The notes under the pieces: generated by a model
What the model saw: only the letters and a program-made list of their open reading frames with translations
Databases searched by the model: none
What the model was told of the DNA's origin: nothing
Shown: positions 44,473 to 51,397 of the stretch, one piece after another
Numbering within the stretch: the first letter of the stretch is position 1
Layout of the letters: every line of letters starts with the position of its first letter
Position numbers and translations under genes: made by a program
Assembly: GCF_003236295.1 (NCBI RefSeq)
Contig: NZ_POTW01000020.1
Coordinates: 1-64,000, forward strand
Length of the DNA: 64,000 nucleotides
From: Jiangella anatolica
GTDB lineage: Bacteria; Actinomycetota; Actinomycetes; Jiangellales; Jiangellaceae
Direction: 5' to 3'

Positions 44473-45522
44473 TCAATAGGCGGACATCCCCAGCACGTCC
44501 TGCACGTCGGCCAGCGTCGCCTCCGCGATCGCCGTCGCCCGCTCGGCGCCGTCGCGCAGCAGCGACGACACCAGCCCCGGCTCGGCCGCGAACGCCGCCC
44601 GCCGCTCCCGCACCGGCCGCAGCTCCTCGTTCACGACGTCGGTGACCAGCGCCTTCAGCAGCGCCGACCCGCCCCCGCCGACCTGCGCCGCGACCTCCTC
44701 CGGCGCCACGCCGAGACACAGCGCGGCGATCTCCACCAGCGACGACACGCCGGGCCGCCCGGCCGGGTCGTAGCTGATGTCGCGACGAGCGTCGGTCACG
44801 GACCGCCGGATCAGCCGGGCCGTCTCGTCCGCCGTCGCCTTCAGCGCGATCGCGTTCCCTCGGCTCTTGCTCATCTTCCGCCCGTCGACGCCGAGCAGCC
44901 GCGGCGCCGGCGACAGCAGCGCCTGCGGCTCGCCGAAGACCGCGCGCCCGCCGGCGTAGCGCTCGTTGAACCGGCGTGCGACCAGCCGGGTCTGCTCGAC
45001 GTGCGGCAACTGGTCGTCGCCGACGGGGACCAGGTTGCCGTGGCAGAACAGGATGTCCGCGGCCTGGTGAACCGGGTAGGTCAGCAGCAGCCCGCTGACC
45101 GACCCCAGACCGGACGCGGCGGCCTCGTCCTTCACCGTCGGGTTGCGTTGCAGCTCCGCCACCGTCGTCAGTGAGAGGAACGGCAGCAGCAGCTGGTTCA
45201 GCGCCGGCACCGAGCTGTGCGCGAACACCGTCGTCGACGACGGGTCGATGCCGGCGGCGAGGTTGTCCAGCACCACCTCGCGCACGTTCGCGGCGATCTC
45301 GCCGGGCGACAGCCGGTCGGTGATCACCTGGTAGTCGGCGACGACGAGGAAGGTCTCGACGCCCTGACGCTGCAGCCGGACCCGGTTGAGCAGCGTGCCG
45401 AAGTAGTGGCCGAGGTGCAGCGGACCGGTCGGCCGGTCGCCGGTGAGCACCCGGTAGCGGGACGGATCGGCCGCCACCTGGGCCGGATCGGCCAGCAGCG
45501 GGGTCTCGAGGGTGAGGGTCAT
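44473..45522 (-). CDS. trpS: Tryptophanyl-tRNA synthetase, attenuator-controlled copy
   Basis: 349 residues, class I synthetase: HIGH-type motif HLGH (36-39) in DRPTGPLHLGHYFGTLLNRV and KMSKS (216-220) in VDGRKMSKSRGNAI. Substrate-pocket stretches YQVITDR and QAADILFC are typical. It charges tRNA-Trp. The 5' region (45523-45653) contains a Trp-Trp leader peptide and mutually exclusive hairpins, so expression rises when charged tRNA-Trp is low. By analogy with the Streptomyces auxiliary TrpRS that gives indolmycin resistance and is regulated by ribosome-mediated attenuation, this may be a second, drug-resistant copy; that is inference. Confidence 0.92.
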   Translation of the reverse strand: MTLTLETPLLADPAQVAADPSRYRVLTGDRPTGPLHLGHYFGTLLNRVRLQRQGVETFLVVADYQVITDRLSPGEIAANVREVVLDNLAAGIDPSSTTVFAHSSVPALNQLLLPFLSLTTVAELQRNPTVKDEAAASGLGSVSGLLLTYPVHQAADILFCHGNLVPVGDDQLPHVEQTRLVARRFNERYAGGRAVFGEPQALLSPAPRLLGVDGRKMSKSRGNAIALKATADETARLIRRSVTDARRDISYDPAGRPGVSSLVEIAALCLGVAPEEVAAQVGGGGSALLKALVTDVVNEELRPVRERRAAFAAEPGLVSSLLRDGAERATAIAEATLADVQDVLGMSAY

Positions 45523-45568
45523 GACGCTCTCCGTTCGGTGGACGGGCCACCGCGAGAGCTGTCACCTG

Positions 45569-45653
45569 ATCGGCCGCCGTCGCGGCGGCCGATGAGCATG
45601 CTGAGCAGGGCCGCCTACGAGGGCAGCCACCACACCAGCACGAGGGACTTCAC
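45569..45653 (-). promoter_or_regulatory. Tryptophan attenuator (leader peptide, antiterminator, terminator)
   Basis: Read on the minus strand: the leader ORF (45653-45615), then GGCGGCC starting at its stop codon (45615-45609), then atcggccgcc (45593-45584) and ggcggccgat (45578-45569) with a 5-base loop. The last two make a perfect 10-bp terminator stem. GGCGGCC can instead pair with GGCCGCC of the terminator's first arm, making an antiterminator. A ribosome at the leader stop would cover GGCGGCC; one stalled at the Trp codons would leave it free. Confidence 0.85.
45615..45653 (-). CDS. Trp-rich leader peptide of trpS
   Basis: Twelve codons starting GTG: MKSLVLVWWLPS, with two adjacent Trp codons (45632-45627) four codons before the TAG stop. 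An in-frame TAG 12 bases upstream limits the start to this GTG (or the GTG at 45641). GGAGG is too near for normal spacing, whereas TAGGGT (45665-45660) lies exactly 6 bases before the GTG, so the transcript probably starts at the G of the GTG and is leaderless. Confidence 0.82.
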   Translation of the reverse strand: MKSLVLVWWLPS

Positions 45654-45676: not shown

Positions 45677-46219
45677 TCAGCCGATCGGCGCGCAGTTCAC
45701 CCCGAGCTGCGTCATCCCGCTGACGAAGCCGGCGGTCAGCTCGGCGGCCTGCGCGAGCTGCTCCGGGGTCGGCTCGGCGGAGCCGTCGGTCAGCGCCGTC
45801 CACGCCTGTCCGGCCTGGTCCCCGACGGCGACGACGGCGCCGGCCTGCGCCTGCTCGGCCTCGTCGGCCGGCAGCGGCACGTCATGCACGGACGCGACCA
45901 GCGCGGCCGTCCCTGCCTGAACGGCGCCGAGGTTGGCGGCGTCCAGCCGGACCTCCGGACCTTGCGCCATGATCGGCTGCTCCGCCGCCACCGTCGTGCA
46001 CGCGTCGGTGACGCCGGCGGCCCAGTCGGCGAGCGTCCCGGACGGACGGGGATCCTGGTCGGCCGCGGAGTCCGAGGAGCCGCCGCTGGACGCGACCAGC
46101 ACGACGCCGGCGACGGCGGCGACCAGCATGAACGCCGCGGCCACCGCGAGGGTGAGCTTGGTGCGACGCGGGGGCGGACGGTGGGCAACGGCCGAGGGGA
46201 CGTCCTCGAGCAGTTTCAC
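45677..46219 (-). CDS. Membrane-anchored protein of unknown function
   Basis: 180 residues: short cytosolic N-terminus (with PPPRRTK), one membrane helix (LTLAVAAAFMLVAAVAGVVL, 21-42), a Ser/Gly/Asp linker, then a helical outer domain with two Cys (VTDACTTVAAEQ and GVNCAPIG at the end) likely disulfide-linked. Alanine-rich helices (EQAQAGAVVAVGDQAGQAW) resemble many actinobacterial cell-surface hypothetical proteins. No family recognised. It lies just upstream of the trpS leader on the same strand. Confidence 0.72.
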   Translation of the reverse strand: MKLLEDVPSAVAHRPPPRRTKLTLAVAAAFMLVAAVAGVVLVASSGGSSDSAADQDPRPSGTLADWAAGVTDACTTVAAEQPIMAQGPEVRLDAANLGAVQAGTAALVASVHDVPLPADEAEQAQAGAVVAVGDQAGQAWTALTDGSAEPTPEQLAQAAELTAGFVSGMTQLGVNCAPIG

Positions 46220-46480: not shown

Positions 46481-49400
46481 GTGAGCGCGATGCGCAGCGA
46501 CGCCGTCGCCGGCCCGGCTCCGACCCGTGCGGAGCTGGTCGCGGACGCCGTCGAGCGGTGGAGCGGCGAGCTCGCCGCACTCGGCGGGCGCGACCCGCTG
46601 CTGTCCTACCGCGATCTCAAGGTGGGGACGCTCGATCTCGCGGCCGCCGAGCCCGAGGCGCGCAAGCAGCTGCTCGAGGGCGAGCCGGTCCTGGTCTCCA
46701 AGCTGTTCCCGTACGAGCCGCTGCGCACGTCGGCGCTGCGCTCGGTGCGGGCCATCCGCGACAAGTCCCGCGAGCTGGCCGAGGAGCGGGGGCTCGCCGT
46801 CTGCCACCTGGCCGTCGGCATCGCGACCTGGGCGAACCCGTTCGCCGCGCGCCGGCCGACGGCGCCGGTCATGCTCCGGCCGGCGGTCGTCGAGGCGCGC
46901 GACCCGGCTGAGACCGACTTCACGATCACGATCGCCGACGACCCGTTCGTCAACCCGGTGCTGCTGTGGGCGCTGGACACCCAGCTCGGCCTGCGGTTCG
47001 CGACCGACGACCTGCGCGACCCGGCCGGCCGGCTGCGGTACGCGACGGTGGTCGAGCGGCTGCGGGAGTTCGCCCCGCCGCACGTCGTCGACGGATTCGC
47101 GATCGCGCACCGGGCGGTGCTCGCCACGTTCACCACGGTCCCGCTGGCGCTGAGTCGCGACCTCGCCGCGCTCGGCGTGGACCTGCAGGGGCACGACGTC
47201 GTCGCCGCGCTGGCCGGCGATCCGGGCGCGCTGGCGGCCGTGGCGCGGTCCGGCAGCCCGGCCGAGCTGCGCTATCGCGTCCTCGACACCGACGGCGAGC
47301 AGGACGACGTCGTCGCCGCGGCCGTCGGCGACGGCCACCTGCGGGTCTCCGCCGCGCCCGGCACCGGCCGCACGCAGACCGTCGCCGCGCTGGTCGCCGA
47401 GCTGGTCGGACGGGGTCAGCGGGTGCTCGTGGTGGGCGAGAAGCGCGCCGTCCTCGACGACCTCGTGACGCGGCTGGACTCCGTCGGCCTGCGCGACGTC
47501 GTCCTCGACGCGGGGCGCACGCCCGCCGTCGCCGCCGTCCAGCAGATCGCCGGGACCGCCCGCCGGCTGCGGCAGGCCCGGCCCGGCGAGTTCGAGCACA
47601 TCACGCCCGGCACCGCGGCCGCACTGGCGGCCGAGCTGGACGCCTACCGCGACGCGATCCACGCGATCCGACAGCCGTGGGGTTCGACGGCGCACGAGGC
47701 GATGGTGCTGGTCGCGACCGCGCAGGAGTTCGCCCGGACGCCCGCGCGGGTCGACCCGGACGTGCTCGCCCGGGCCGGCAGCACGGCGCACGTCCGGCTG
47801 CAGCTGCGCGACTTCGCCAACATCGAGGGCCTGACGCTGACGGAGTCGGGCTCGCCGTGGTTCGGCTCCGACGTCCCCGACATCCGGGCCGCCGACGCGC
47901 TCCTCGGCACCGTCACCGAGCTGCGCGAAAGGGCGCTGCCCCGGCTGAAGAACGCCGCCACCCGGGCCGCCGTCGAGGTCGGCCTCGCCGGGCCGAACAC
48001 CGTCGCCGAGTGCCTGGAGACGGTCGACCTGCTGGCGTCGGTCGGGCGCACCGTCGAGACGCTCGGCGCGCAGATCTGGGACGAGCCGCTCGGCGAGCTG
48101 GCGGTCGCGACCGGCGACCGCGCCTACCGGTCCGCGCACGGCGCCGGTGCCGGCTTCCTCGCCCGTCGCAAGCTGCGCAAACGGCTCGCCGACCTGACCG
48201 GCAAGGCCGGCCGGCCGGACCGTTCGCGTCAGCACGAGGGCCTGATCGCCGCGGAGCGGCAGCTGACCATCTGGCGGGAGCGGTCCCGTGACGGCAAGCC
48301 GCCGCGCACCGGCCCGCACCTGGCCAACGCCGTCGACGCCGCGAAGGGCGTCCGGCACGCGCTGGCCACGCTGGCCGACGGCAACCCGCGCACCGCGGAC
48401 CTGGAGGACCTGTCCTTCGCCGACGTCGCGAAGCGGCTGGACGAGCTGATCGCCGACAGCGGGCACCTGCGGGCGCTGCCGCGGCTGTACGAGCTGCAGG
48501 CCGAGCTGTCCGCGGCCGGGCTGGACGACCTCATCGCCGAGCTGCGCCGTCGCGGCATCGGCGCCGACCAGGTCGAGGCGGTCTTCGACTACGCGTGGTA
48601 CTCGTCGCTGCTGGACCTGTGGCGCTCCACCGATCCCGCGCTCGGCCGGTTCGACCGGTACGCGCACGAACGGCGGCTGGAGGAGTTCCGCGCCGCCGAC
48701 ATGGTCGAGGTGCGGGCGGCCGCCGGCCGGGTGCTGGAGGCCCGGCGGGCCCGGTTCGCCGACATCGCCGAGCAGCACGAGGGCCAGACAGCGGTGCTGA
48801 CGGAGTCGCCGGAGAGCGCGCTGCCGGCGTCGCCGCGGGCGCTCGTCGAGGAGGCGCCTGAGCTGGCGCTGGCGGCGGTGCCGTGCTGGGTGGCGTCGCC
48901 GCTCACCGTCGCCGAACTGCTGCCGCCGCGGCCGCTGTTCGACGTGGTCGTGGTCGAGGACGCCGGGCGGCTCGCCGTCGCCGAGGCGATCGCCGCCGTG
49001 GCCCGCGGCGCACGCGTCGTCCTCGTCGGCGACGACGACGTCGCGCGGCCGCCGTTCACGACCGCCGTCGAGCCCGCGCCGGACCCCGACTCGCAGGAAG
49101 GTCCGTGGGCGCAGGACCCGCCGCCCTCCGTCGTCGACCTGCTGCGAGGTGCGCTGCCGGAGCGGCAGCTCACCGGGCAGCACCGGGTCCGCGACGACCG
49201 TCTCGTCGGGTTCGCCGCCCGCACGACGCACGCCGGCCGGCTCACCACCGTCCCCGGCGTGGGCGGCGCCGACCGCGTCACCATGCAGATCGTCGACTCC
49301 GACCCGATCGCCGACGACCCCGTCGACAGCTCGTCCGACGAGGTCAACCGCGTCGTCGAGCTGGTCCTCGACCACGTCCGCACCCGCCCGCACGAGAGCC

Positions 49401-51397
49401 TCGGCGTCGTGACCCTCGGCCCGCGGCACGCCGAGCGGCTGGACGTCGCGCTGCGGCACGCGCTCATCCGAGCCCCCGAGGTCGCCCCTCACCTGCGCGG
49501 CGACCGCGTCGAGCCCTTCTTCATCAAGGACGTCGAGCGGGTCTCCGGCGACGTGCGCGACGCGATCATCCTCACGCTCGGCTACGGCCGGTCGGTCGAC
49601 GGACGCATCCTCTACCGGTTCGGCGCGTTGGGCCGGCCGGGCGGCGAGCGGCGGCTCAGCGCGGCGACGCTGTGCTCGCGCGAGCGGCTCACCGTCGTCG
49701 CCACCTTCGGCGCCGACGACCTCAGCCCGCGGCGGCTGACGACGCCGGGCGCGCAGGCGCTCGGGCAGTTCCTGGCGTACGTGCAGCAGGGTCCGCAGCC
49801 GGACTGGGTCGAGGGCCCGACGCCGGCGCCCGGCCGCTCCGGCGTCCTGGCCGAGACCGTCGCCGAGCGGCTGCAGGAGGCCGGCGTCGCTGCGGAGATC
49901 GTGCTCGGCCACGGCGGGCCCGGCGGTGTCGCCGTCGCCGTCCGGCACCCGACGCGGCGGTCGCGGTTCGTGCTGGCGATCGAGACCGACGGTGAGACGT
50001 ACGCGGCGCGGCGCAACGCGCGCGAGCGGGAGCGGCTGCGGCAGGAGCAGTTGACGCGGCTGGGCTGGGCGGTACATCGCATCTGGTCGGCGGCGTGGGC
50101 GGCCGATCCGGACGCGGAGACCGAGCGGTTGCTCGCGGCGTACGAGCAGGCGGTCAAGGATGCCGACGCCTACGACTGGGCGGTCGCGGCGGCCGAGGCG
50201 GACATCGTGGCCGGCATGCCGGAGGACGAGCCGCTGCCGGCGCAGGGCAGCGGCGCGGCCGCGTCGCCGCGGCCGTCGGTTGGTCAGCGCCCGCCGGTCG
50301 GCCGCCGGACGGTCGACAGCCGGGCATCGGCTGGTGGCGGAGAGGCGGACACCAACGGCGCGGGCGCGGGCGCGCGGGGTGCGGCCGCGGCGTCCGGCGC
50401 GGGCGGACGTGGTTCCGGTTCGGCCGGAGCGACGACTGACTCGGCCGGACCCGCGTCCGGCTCGGCCGACGGAACGTCGACCTCGCAAGCCCCGGCATCC
50501 GGCTCGGCTGGTTCCGGCGGGTCCGCGGCCGGCTCGAGCGGCCCTGCGGCTGGTTCGGCCGGCGGATCGTCGGCCTCCCAGGACTCGGCGTCCGGCTCGG
50601 CTGGTTCGGGCGGGTCCGTGGCCGGTTCGAGCGGCCCCGTGGTTGGTTCGGCCGGCGGATCGTCGACGTCGCAAGGCCCGGCGTCCGGCTCGGCTGGTTC
50701 CGGCAGGTCCACGGCAGCTTCGGCCGGCACTGCGGCCGGTTCGGCCGGCGCGGCGGCATCCAGCTCGCCTGGTTCGGGCGGCGGATCGTCGGCCTCACAG
50801 GACCCGGCGTCCGGCGCGGCCAGTGGGTCGTCCGCGGTATCGGGTTCGGGCTCGGCCGGATCCGCTGCCGATGGTGCGTCCGCTGGGTCCGGTTCGGCGG
50901 GATCCGGCACAGGTGCGTCCGCCGCAGGACCATCCACGGCCTCCGATTCGGCCGCGTCCGCTGCCGGCGGATCGTCCACCGCGTCCGGCCAGGCTTCGGT
51001 CTCCGGCTCATCCGGCTCCGGCGCTTCGAGTGGGTCGCCGTCGACCGGCGGCTCTGCGGCGGGTTCGCCGGGAACCGCCGCTTCCGGCGCCGCCGATTCC
51101 ACGTCCGGCCCGGCCTCGGGCGGACCAACCGCCATCGACGCAGCCGAAGCGGAGCCCGAGCCGGTGCGCCAGGGCAACCGTCCGCTGATCGTCAGCGGCC
51201 GCCCGGTCAGCGACTACACGGGCCGCGAACTGGCCGCCCTCGCCCGCTGGACCGAGTCCGACGGCATCGCCCGCCGCGTGGACGACGTGGTGGGGCTGCT
51301 CGCCACCGACCTTTCCCTCGACCTCGACGACGCCCGCACCGCCGACGTCCTGCGTCACGCCGTCCGGGTCGCCCGCGCCGGTTCGCCGGCCACCTGA
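46481..51397 (+). CDS. Giant SF1-helicase-like protein (DUF4011/AAA_11 type) with Vsr-like nuclease domain and repeat tail
   Basis: 1638 residues. Layout: DUF4011-like N-terminus (20-250, DPLLSYRDLKVGTLDLAA, LVSKLFPYEPLRTSALRSVR); SF1 helicase core split by a helical insert (290-1100); PD-(D/E)XK Vsr/MTES_1575-like domain (about 1120-1210, AIETDGETYAARRNARERER, LGWAVHRIWSAAW); a 300-residue Ser/Gly/Ala disordered region (about 1245-1550); and a short C-terminal helical domain (SGRPVSDYTGRELAALARW). Key residues look degraded: Walker A is GTGRT (Arg 297 for Lys), Walker B is VEDAG, motif III is VGDDDVARPPF, motif VI has LCSRER, and the nuclease strand expected to carry Asp reads GVAVAV. It may bind nucleic acid or ATP without hydrolysis. 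GTG 46481 or ATG 46490 may be the start. Confidence 0.82.
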   Translation: MSAMRSDAVAGPAPTRAELVADAVERWSGELAALGGRDPLLSYRDLKVGTLDLAAAEPEARKQLLEGEPVLVSKLFPYEPLRTSALRSVRAIRDKSRELAEERGLAVCHLAVGIATWANPFAARRPTAPVMLRPAVVEARDPAETDFTITIADDPFVNPVLLWALDTQLGLRFATDDLRDPAGRLRYATVVERLREFAPPHVVDGFAIAHRAVLATFTTVPLALSRDLAALGVDLQGHDVVAALAGDPGALAAVARSGSPAELRYRVLDTDGEQDDVVAAAVGDGHLRVSAAPGTGRTQTVAALVAELVGRGQRVLVVGEKRAVLDDLVTRLDSVGLRDVVLDAGRTPAVAAVQQIAGTARRLRQARPGEFEHITPGTAAALAAELDAYRDAIHAIRQPWGSTAHEAMVLVATAQEFARTPARVDPDVLARAGSTAHVRLQLRDFANIEGLTLTESGSPWFGSDVPDIRAADALLGTVTELRERALPRLKNAATRAAVEVGLAGPNTVAECLETVDLLASVGRTVETLGAQIWDEPLGELAVATGDRAYRSAHGAGAGFLARRKLRKRLADLTGKAGRPDRSRQHEGLIAAERQLTIWRERSRDGKPPRTGPHLANAVDAAKGVRHALATLADGNPRTADLEDLSFADVAKRLDELIADSGHLRALPRLYELQAELSAAGLDDLIAELRRRGIGADQVEAVFDYAWYSSLLDLWRSTDPALGRFDRYAHERRLEEFRAADMVEVRAAAGRVLEARRARFADIAEQHEGQTAVLTESPESALPASPRALVEEAPELALAAVPCWVASPLTVAELLPPRPLFDVVVVEDAGRLAVAEAIAAVARGARVVLVGDDDVARPPFTTAVEPAPDPDSQEGPWAQDPPPSVVDLLRGALPERQLTGQHRVRDDRLVGFAARTTHAGRLTTVPGVGGADRVTMQIVDSDPIADDPVDSSSDEVNRVVELVLDHVRTRPHESLGVVTLGPRHAERLDVALRHALIRAPEVAPHLRGDRVEPFFIKDVERVSGDVRDAIILTLGYGRSVDGRILYRFGALGRPGGERRLSAATLCSRERLTVVATFGADDLSPRRLTTPGAQALGQFLAYVQQGPQPDWVEGPTPAPGRSGVLAETVAERLQEAGVAAEIVLGHGGPGGVAVAVRHPTRRSRFVLAIETDGETYAARRNARERERLRQEQLTRLGWAVHRIWSAAWAADPDAETERLLAAYEQAVKDADAYDWAVAAAEADIVAGMPEDEPLPAQGSGAAASPRPSVGQRPPVGRRTVDSRASAGGGEADTNGAGAGARGAAAASGAGGRGSGSAGATTDSAGPASGSADGTSTSQAPASGSAGSGGSAAGSSGPAAGSAGGSSASQDSASGSAGSGGSVAGSSGPVVGSAGGSSTSQGPASGSAGSGRSTAASAGTAAGSAGAAASSSPGSGGGSSASQDPASGAASGSSAVSGSGSAGSAADGASAGSGSAGSGTGASAAGPSTASDSAASAAGGSSTASGQASVSGSSGSGASSGSPSTGGSAAGSPGTAASGAADSTSGPASGGPTAIDAAEAEPEPVRQGNRPLIVSGRPVSDYTGRELAALARWTESDGIARRVDDVVGLLATDLSLDLDDARTADVLRHAVRVARAGSPAT
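50477..50755 (+). repeat. 93-bp in-frame tandem repeat, three units
   Basis: Units start at 50477, 50570 and 50663, exactly 93 bp apart, each coding for 31 residues of S/G/A text (first parts STSQAPASGSAGSGG, SASQDSASGSAGSGG, STSQGPASGSAGSGR). A degraded continuation follows to about 51120. The period is a multiple of three, so copy-number change keeps the frame. Confidence 0.8.

Follow-up and report, generated by a model that had tools for sequence, protein, structure and literature searches.

A very probable ribosome-mediated tryptophan attenuator in front of a spare TrpRS-II-clade synthetase gene in Jiangella and other actinobacteria

Why should a tryptophanyl-tRNA synthetase (TrpRS) gene be preceded by a very short reading frame with two adjacent Trp codons? 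This question is raised by a 64,000-nt stretch of Jiangella anatolica DNA (contig NZ_POTW01000020.1, positions 1 to 64,000), hereafter the window. On its minus strand, the sequence TAGGGT, six bases, a leader ORF, the motif GGCGGCC, a terminator-like 3:4 hairpin, a Shine-Dalgarno hairpin and trpS follow each other in this order (Table 1). Judged from sequence analysis, this arrangement is very probably a ribosome-mediated Trp attenuator controlling a spare TrpRS gene. The locus combines the features by which such attenuators are recognized, i.e., a Trp-rich short ORF, mutually exclusive pairings and an upstream promoter element with a predicted start.

The leader ORF reads GTG AAG TCC CTC GTG CTG GTG TGG TGG CTG CCC TCG TAG (45653-45615), with the GTG start codon at 45653-45651, the adjacent TGG TGG as codons 8-9 at 45632-45627 and TAG at 45617-45615. 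The motif GGCGGCC begins on the final G of TAG; thus, segment 2 abuts the stop codon. As the original prediction had it, a 12-codon leader with two adjacent Trp codons and a TAG placed directly on GGCGGCC is indeed read on this strand. When the whole window was scanned for ORFs of 6-20 codons containing TrpTrp and preceded by a TAnnnT box at 6-7 nt, only this leader ORF was obtained. All 60 leaders compared (48 from named actinobacterial loci and 12 from Jiangella) have an in-frame start codon with a TAnnnT box at a distance of 6 or 7 nt on its 5' side; arbitrary start codons have one in 8.4% of cases. The former count is helped somewhat by the use of the box to pick the start among in-frame candidates. 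In Streptomyces lividans, TAnnnT lies ~6.3 nt from the transcription start site (PMC8079986). Since the spacing in the leaders matches this distance, translation of the leader probably takes place on a leaderless transcript, with transcription starting at the leader start codon or within about one base. A GGAGG sequence is present upstream of the leader GTG, but its spacing is too short for a Shine-Dalgarno sequence, and it is not conserved (loci L093 and L095). A promoter scan of the 64-kb window gave no sigma-70-type match with a -35 element. The leader -10 box lies 11 nt downstream of the end of a gene (45677-46219, minus strand) for a membrane-anchored-looking protein without a Pfam match, and this gene end stays adjacent to trpS across Jiangella. 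Another neighboring region, 46481-51397, encodes a 1638-aa protein that looks like a large helicase-nuclease, combining DUF4011, AAA helicase and MTES_1575 endonuclease domains with a long Ser/Gly/Ala-rich tail.

Folding of the leader RNA revealed alternative pairings among its segments. The 1:2 protector hairpin (45641-45598) has a predicted folding energy of -26.7 kcal/mol, and the 3:4 hairpin, AUCGGCCGCCG-CGA-CGGCGGCCGAU (45593-45569), comprises 11 bp with -21.5 kcal/mol. The GGCGGCC of segment 2 is perfectly complementary to GGCCGCC in arm 3 (7/7 pairs). Since both 2:3 and 3:4 use segment 3, they are mutually exclusive. A perfect 10-bp terminator stem sharing the partner GGCCGCC had been expected; the shared partner stands, while the stem is 11 bp long. 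The geometry proposed for a ribosome at the stop codon was likewise borne out, as segment 2 starts at that codon and 2:3 competes with 3:4 for segment 3. The 138-nt leader RNA is more stable than all 200 of its dinucleotide shuffles (z = -4.0). An Rfam search covering T-box, trp leaders, dauA and others gave nothing above the gathering score; a dauA riboswitch match overlapping the Shine-Dalgarno hairpin reached 26.6 bits against a threshold of 45 and was dropped.

Table 1. Positions of the leader elements and trpS in the window.
Feature	Positions	Strand	Basis
-10 element TAGGGT, 6 nt 5' of the leader start codon	45660..45665	minus	TAnnnT at 6-7 nt spacing across leaders
Leader ORF GTG...TAG, peptide MKSLVLVWWLPS*, 12 codons	45615..45653	minus	peptide retained in Jiangella genomes (n = 12)
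Segment 1 (GUGCUGG...GGCUGCC), holding the Trp codons and forming the 5' arm of the 1:2 protector hairpin	45622..45641	minus	fold
Segment 2, GGCGGCC (45615-45609) and UCAGCAU (45604-45598)	45598..45615	minus	pairs with segment 1, or with segment 3 as antiterminator
Segment 3 (AUCGGCCGCCG), common partner of segments 2, 4 and 5	45583..45593	minus	complementarity
Loop CGA of the 3:4 hairpin, complementary to segment 5 as well	45580..45582	minus	complementarity
Segment 4 (CGGCGGCCGAU), 3' arm of the terminator-like 3:4 hairpin	45569..45579	minus	fold; no U-tract after
Hairpin pairing the trpS Shine-Dalgarno sequence (GGAGA, 45532-45528) with GCUCUC; segment 5 in its 5' half	45523..45563	minus	fold, conservation
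Segment 5 (UCGCGGUGGCC), 11-bp complement of segment 3 and loop	45545..45555	minus	shuffles, recurrence
trpS, encoding a 349-aa auxiliary tryptophanyl-tRNA synthetase (TrpRS-II clade)	44473..45522	minus	TIGR00233 (227 bits), PF00579, best PDB match 1yi8

Comparison with related loci showed that the element is conserved. In all 12 Jiangella genomes, hardly any letters change in the leader, the two 3:4 arms and the downstream hairpin, whereas the flanks and the first trpS codons vary; the first leader-peptide residues differ in two of the 12. Among the family's other genera, six relatives whose trpS proteins are 68-74% identical to that of the window keep a TrpTrp or TrpTrpTrp leader. An adjacent-Trp leader of the same plan precedes 48 of 80 named actinobacterial loci, and a single-Trp version occurs in 4-5 more. 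In 47 of the 62 leaders compared for this, the first base of segment 2 is at +2 or +3, counted from the stop codon. In both the family relatives and the named loci, the layout is kept while the letters differ. Indeed, 17 distinct segment 2/3/4 sets were found, for example GGCGGCC/GGCCGCC/GGCGGCC, GAGCGGC/GCCGUUC/GGACGGC and GCAGCCG/GGGCUGC/GCAGCUC. Within a locus, 6.7 of 7 pairs form on average for 2:3 and 7 for 3:4, against 3.6 and 3.8 when segments are mixed between loci. Selecting the register by best fit favors pairing and so inflates the absolute values, yet the contrast within versus between loci is large. The three segments have thus changed in concert.

The enzyme encoded downstream belongs to the TrpRS-II clade. 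Its closest solved structure is PDB 1yi8, the Deinococcus radiodurans TrpRS II, and over the aligned part it is 46% identical to that protein. Its identity is 36% both to housekeeping TrpRS proteins and to a protein from Streptomyces sp. TBY4 (L143), which we presume to be of the TrpRS1 type on account of its Lys9. The residue equivalent to Bst Gln9 is Arg in the window TrpRS, Gln in the housekeeping copy and Lys in the TrpRS1 type, and that equivalent to Bst His43 is Gln in the window TrpRS and His in the other two. The corresponding motifs are GDRPTG in the window TrpRS and GVKPTG in the TrpRS1 type. With GDRPTG, its Arg residue and the higher identity to TrpRS II, the window protein does not belong to the indolmycin-resistant TrpRS1 type of Streptomyces to which the original prediction had likened it. 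Since His43 is replaced and H43N confers indolmycin resistance (PMC4899734), a reduced sensitivity of the window TrpRS to indolmycin is plausible from its sequence.

A second, housekeeping trpS had been anticipated elsewhere in the genome, and it was found (C245; 344 bits to TIGR00233, 36% identical to the window protein). All 11 other Jiangella genomes also contain a second TrpRS. Of the 54 named genomes with a housekeeping-type TrpRS, 50 have the leader, but only three of the 25 without such a copy do (Fisher p = 1e-12; locus L012, whose upstream DNA is cut, was excluded), a p value that is optimistic because related loci were counted separately and are not independent. In other words, 50 of the 53 leader-bearing named genomes have this trpS as a spare. 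Streptomyces sp. TBY4, with three TrpRS genes, is instructive: its TrpRS-II gene (L032) has no leader, whereas its GVKPTG gene (L143, G050:C7) is preceded by a leader, MTTRALTLDLRWWAA*, with TrpTrp and, at the leaderless spacing, a -10 box. The leader on the TrpRS1-type gene and not on the TrpRS-II gene suggests that it goes with the regulated spare. Cryobacterium algoritolerans carries two near-identical TrpRS-II genes (L145 and L146) with near-identical leaders besides its housekeeping copy.

From this arrangement we infer ribosome stalling, an on/off logic, an inducing signal and a block at the level of either transcription or translation. By the usual ribosome footprint, segment 2 is accessible while a ribosome waits at Trp8/Trp9 and is covered once it stands at the stop codon. 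With ample charged tRNA-Trp, the ribosome would reach the stop codon and cover segment 2; the 3:4 hairpin would then form and expression would be off, with the transcript ended or the message untranslatable. When charged tRNA-Trp is short, by starvation or by inhibition of the housekeeping TrpRS, the ribosome would wait at the Trp codons and cover segment 1, so that segment 2 captures segment 3, 3:4 is not formed and trpS is expressed. The newly made TrpRS would restore charged tRNA-Trp. Equilibrium folds with ribosome masks did not distinguish the on from the off state, as 3:4 is thermodynamically dominant and is favored even with segment 1 masked. The attenuator model therefore relies on the co-transcriptional order of folding.

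How the 3:4 hairpin might act is complicated by its 3' side. No U-run follows the stem in the Jiangella locus, where the tail is CAGGUGACA, and a scan for intrinsic terminators found none. At most Streptomyces loci of this gene, 3:4 is followed by a U-rich tail and so has the form of a standard terminator. Intrinsic termination at the Jiangella hairpin is therefore no more than a possibility. The attenuator had been described as complete; its ribosome-type Trp layout holds, being conserved and covarying, but the word complete is too strong, as the U-tract of an intrinsic terminator is absent. Downstream, the Shine-Dalgarno hairpin has a predicted energy of -19.9 kcal/mol, and its stem letters are the same in the 12 Jiangella genomes except for the outer GAC:GUC pairs. 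It is predicted in both the on and off states and would thus limit expression after antitermination. The 11-bp complementarity of segment 5 within this hairpin to segment 3 and the loop is unlikely to arise by shuffling (p = 0.001, 1000 shuffles), and a 3:5 complementarity of different sequence is seen again in family relatives, Mycolicibacterium, Cryobacterium, Nocardioides and others. In two classes of loci, aligned separately and with segments picked by fit, 3 and 2 pairs are changed on both sides, and the scores are reached by 14/500 and 17/500 shuffles, respectively; this covariation is suggestive of a 3:5 helix in the relatives. The idea that 3:5 substitutes for the U-tract was weakened by Kitasatospora-like loci, which have both. 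Candidate roles for segment 5 are translational control or strand invasion after read-through. In seven Streptomyces loci (L013, L043, L047, L054, L058, L060 and L072), an element GGGCCGUCCUCC lies 3' of the terminator and repeats segment 3; it ends in the anti-Shine-Dalgarno sequence CCUCC, and its possible partners are segment 4 or the Shine-Dalgarno sequence.

These downstream features invite other readings of the locus. A mainly translational switch, with the Shine-Dalgarno hairpin as its output and the ribosome position deciding through segments 3, 4 and 5 if the Shine-Dalgarno sequence is accessible, would fit the missing U-tract, the near invariance of this hairpin in the genus and the recurring, partly covarying 3:5 helix inside it. 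Yet folds forced into 2:3, 3:4 or 3:5 leave the Shine-Dalgarno sequence paired in Jiangella. Forced 3:5 frees it in some Microbacteriaceae, Actinomadura and Streptomyces loci, with an inconsistent result overall. Moreover, 3:5 is present in some loci with a U-rich tail, and its last pairs are broken in several family loci; a translational switch is possible but is judged clearly the less probable outcome. The absent U-tract would also suit Rho-dependent attenuation, where ribosome stalling versus completion changes the access of Rho and 3:4 is a pause or protection element. Actinobacterial leaders without intrinsic terminators are known, and Rho is discussed for cys leaders (PMC1262725). However, the complementarity of segments 2, 3 and 4 changes in concert, as classical attenuation requires, and Streptomyces relatives of the element have U-rich tails, which makes a Rho mechanism quite unlikely. 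Hairpins are common in GC-rich DNA, and three other TrpTrp mini-ORFs occur in the window, so that a chance ORF beside GC-rich hairpins of no regulatory role might be considered; this is refuted by the conservation in the genus and beyond, and the -10 spacing, the concerted change, the association with spare copies and the poorer folding of shuffled sequences also argue against it.

A further alternative concerns the purpose of the enzyme and is compatible with an attenuator. The spare TrpRS might serve nitric oxide chemistry, through nitrotryptophan or as a partner of nitric oxide synthase (NOS) like Deinococcus TrpRS II, with the leader tuning it to Trp supply and not to drugs; both indolmycin-resistant TrpRS1 and nitrating TrpRS II have been reviewed (PMC9437257). 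In addition to the clade of the enzyme, this idea is favored by the presence of a bacterial NOS gene (PF02898, e.g., G000:C232:8906-9949) in all 12 Jiangella genomes, each of which has a TrpRS-II-type gene. Outside the family, two or more TrpRS occur in 22 of 30 genomes with NOS and in 45 of 247 without it, but this tally mixes TrpRS types and follows phylogeny, both of which confound it. The 45 genomes that have two TrpRS in the absence of NOS, and the location of the Jiangella NOS gene on another contig, unlinked to trpS, argue against the idea, which we regard as unlikely.

Returning to ribosome-mediated attenuation of the spare gene, a more elaborate form can be envisaged for many actinobacterial families, in which segment 3 chooses among the antiterminator, the terminator arm and a Shine-Dalgarno-proximal strand that invades through the loop, and the place of one ribosome governs the spare TrpRS at transcription as well as at translation; this is speculative and judged unlikely. 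The attenuator itself would carry Trp attenuation beyond the one Streptomyces synthetase studied, to another TrpRS branch and to many actinobacterial genera. Its retention mainly where the TrpRS-II-clade enzyme is the spare suggests a testable rule: the leader marks TrpRS reserve copies for drug or starvation stress. Lineages without a U-tract but with a suggestively covarying extra helix may also offer a natural series for studying attenuation in GC-rich bacteria seemingly lacking standard terminators. A literature search, with most subscription papers outside its scope, found no paper on a TrpRS-II-clade leader across actinobacteria or on the extra segment 5.

Compared with known systems, the Jiangella element shares the 1:2, 2:3, 3:4 logic and the two Trp codons of the E. 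coli-type trp operon attenuator. Unlike the latter, it controls a synthetase, is apparently leaderless, has a stop codon abutting segment 2 and no U-tract, and possesses extra downstream helices. The likeness to D. radiodurans TrpRS II, which also has R and Q at Bst Q9 and H43, concerns the enzyme only, at an identity of 46% in the aligned part. Ribosome-mediated attenuation at the S. coelicolor trpRS1 leader is reported to have been studied by Vecchione and Sello. The product of trpRS1 is an indolmycin-resistant auxiliary TrpRS (Kitabatake 2002, cited in PMC9437257). Both loci have a Trp-codon leader, a spare TrpRS and a housekeeping copy elsewhere, but the Jiangella locus differs in its TrpRS-II clade, its leader, the lack of a U-tract, and the extra segment 5 and Shine-Dalgarno hairpin. 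In S. lividans, a leaderless trpL2 with hairpins and no U-rich stretch precedes trpS (PMC8079986). The Jiangella leader resembles it in all three respects, although trpL2 has a single Trp codon (MMTRTCTQLWRAA*) and the comparison is made by leader, not by trpS clade. Attenuation of a synthetase gene is not as unusual as the original prediction held: S. lividans has leaders before alaS, leuS and thrS besides trpS (PMC8079986), and predictions of 2005 (PMC1262725) placed classical Trp attenuators before trp operons and leaders before trpS and leuS in Streptomyces. Among them, the S. avermitilis trpS2 candidate is likewise a predicted classical Trp attenuator in front of a spare trpS, and it is by this description that the Jiangella locus is likened to it.
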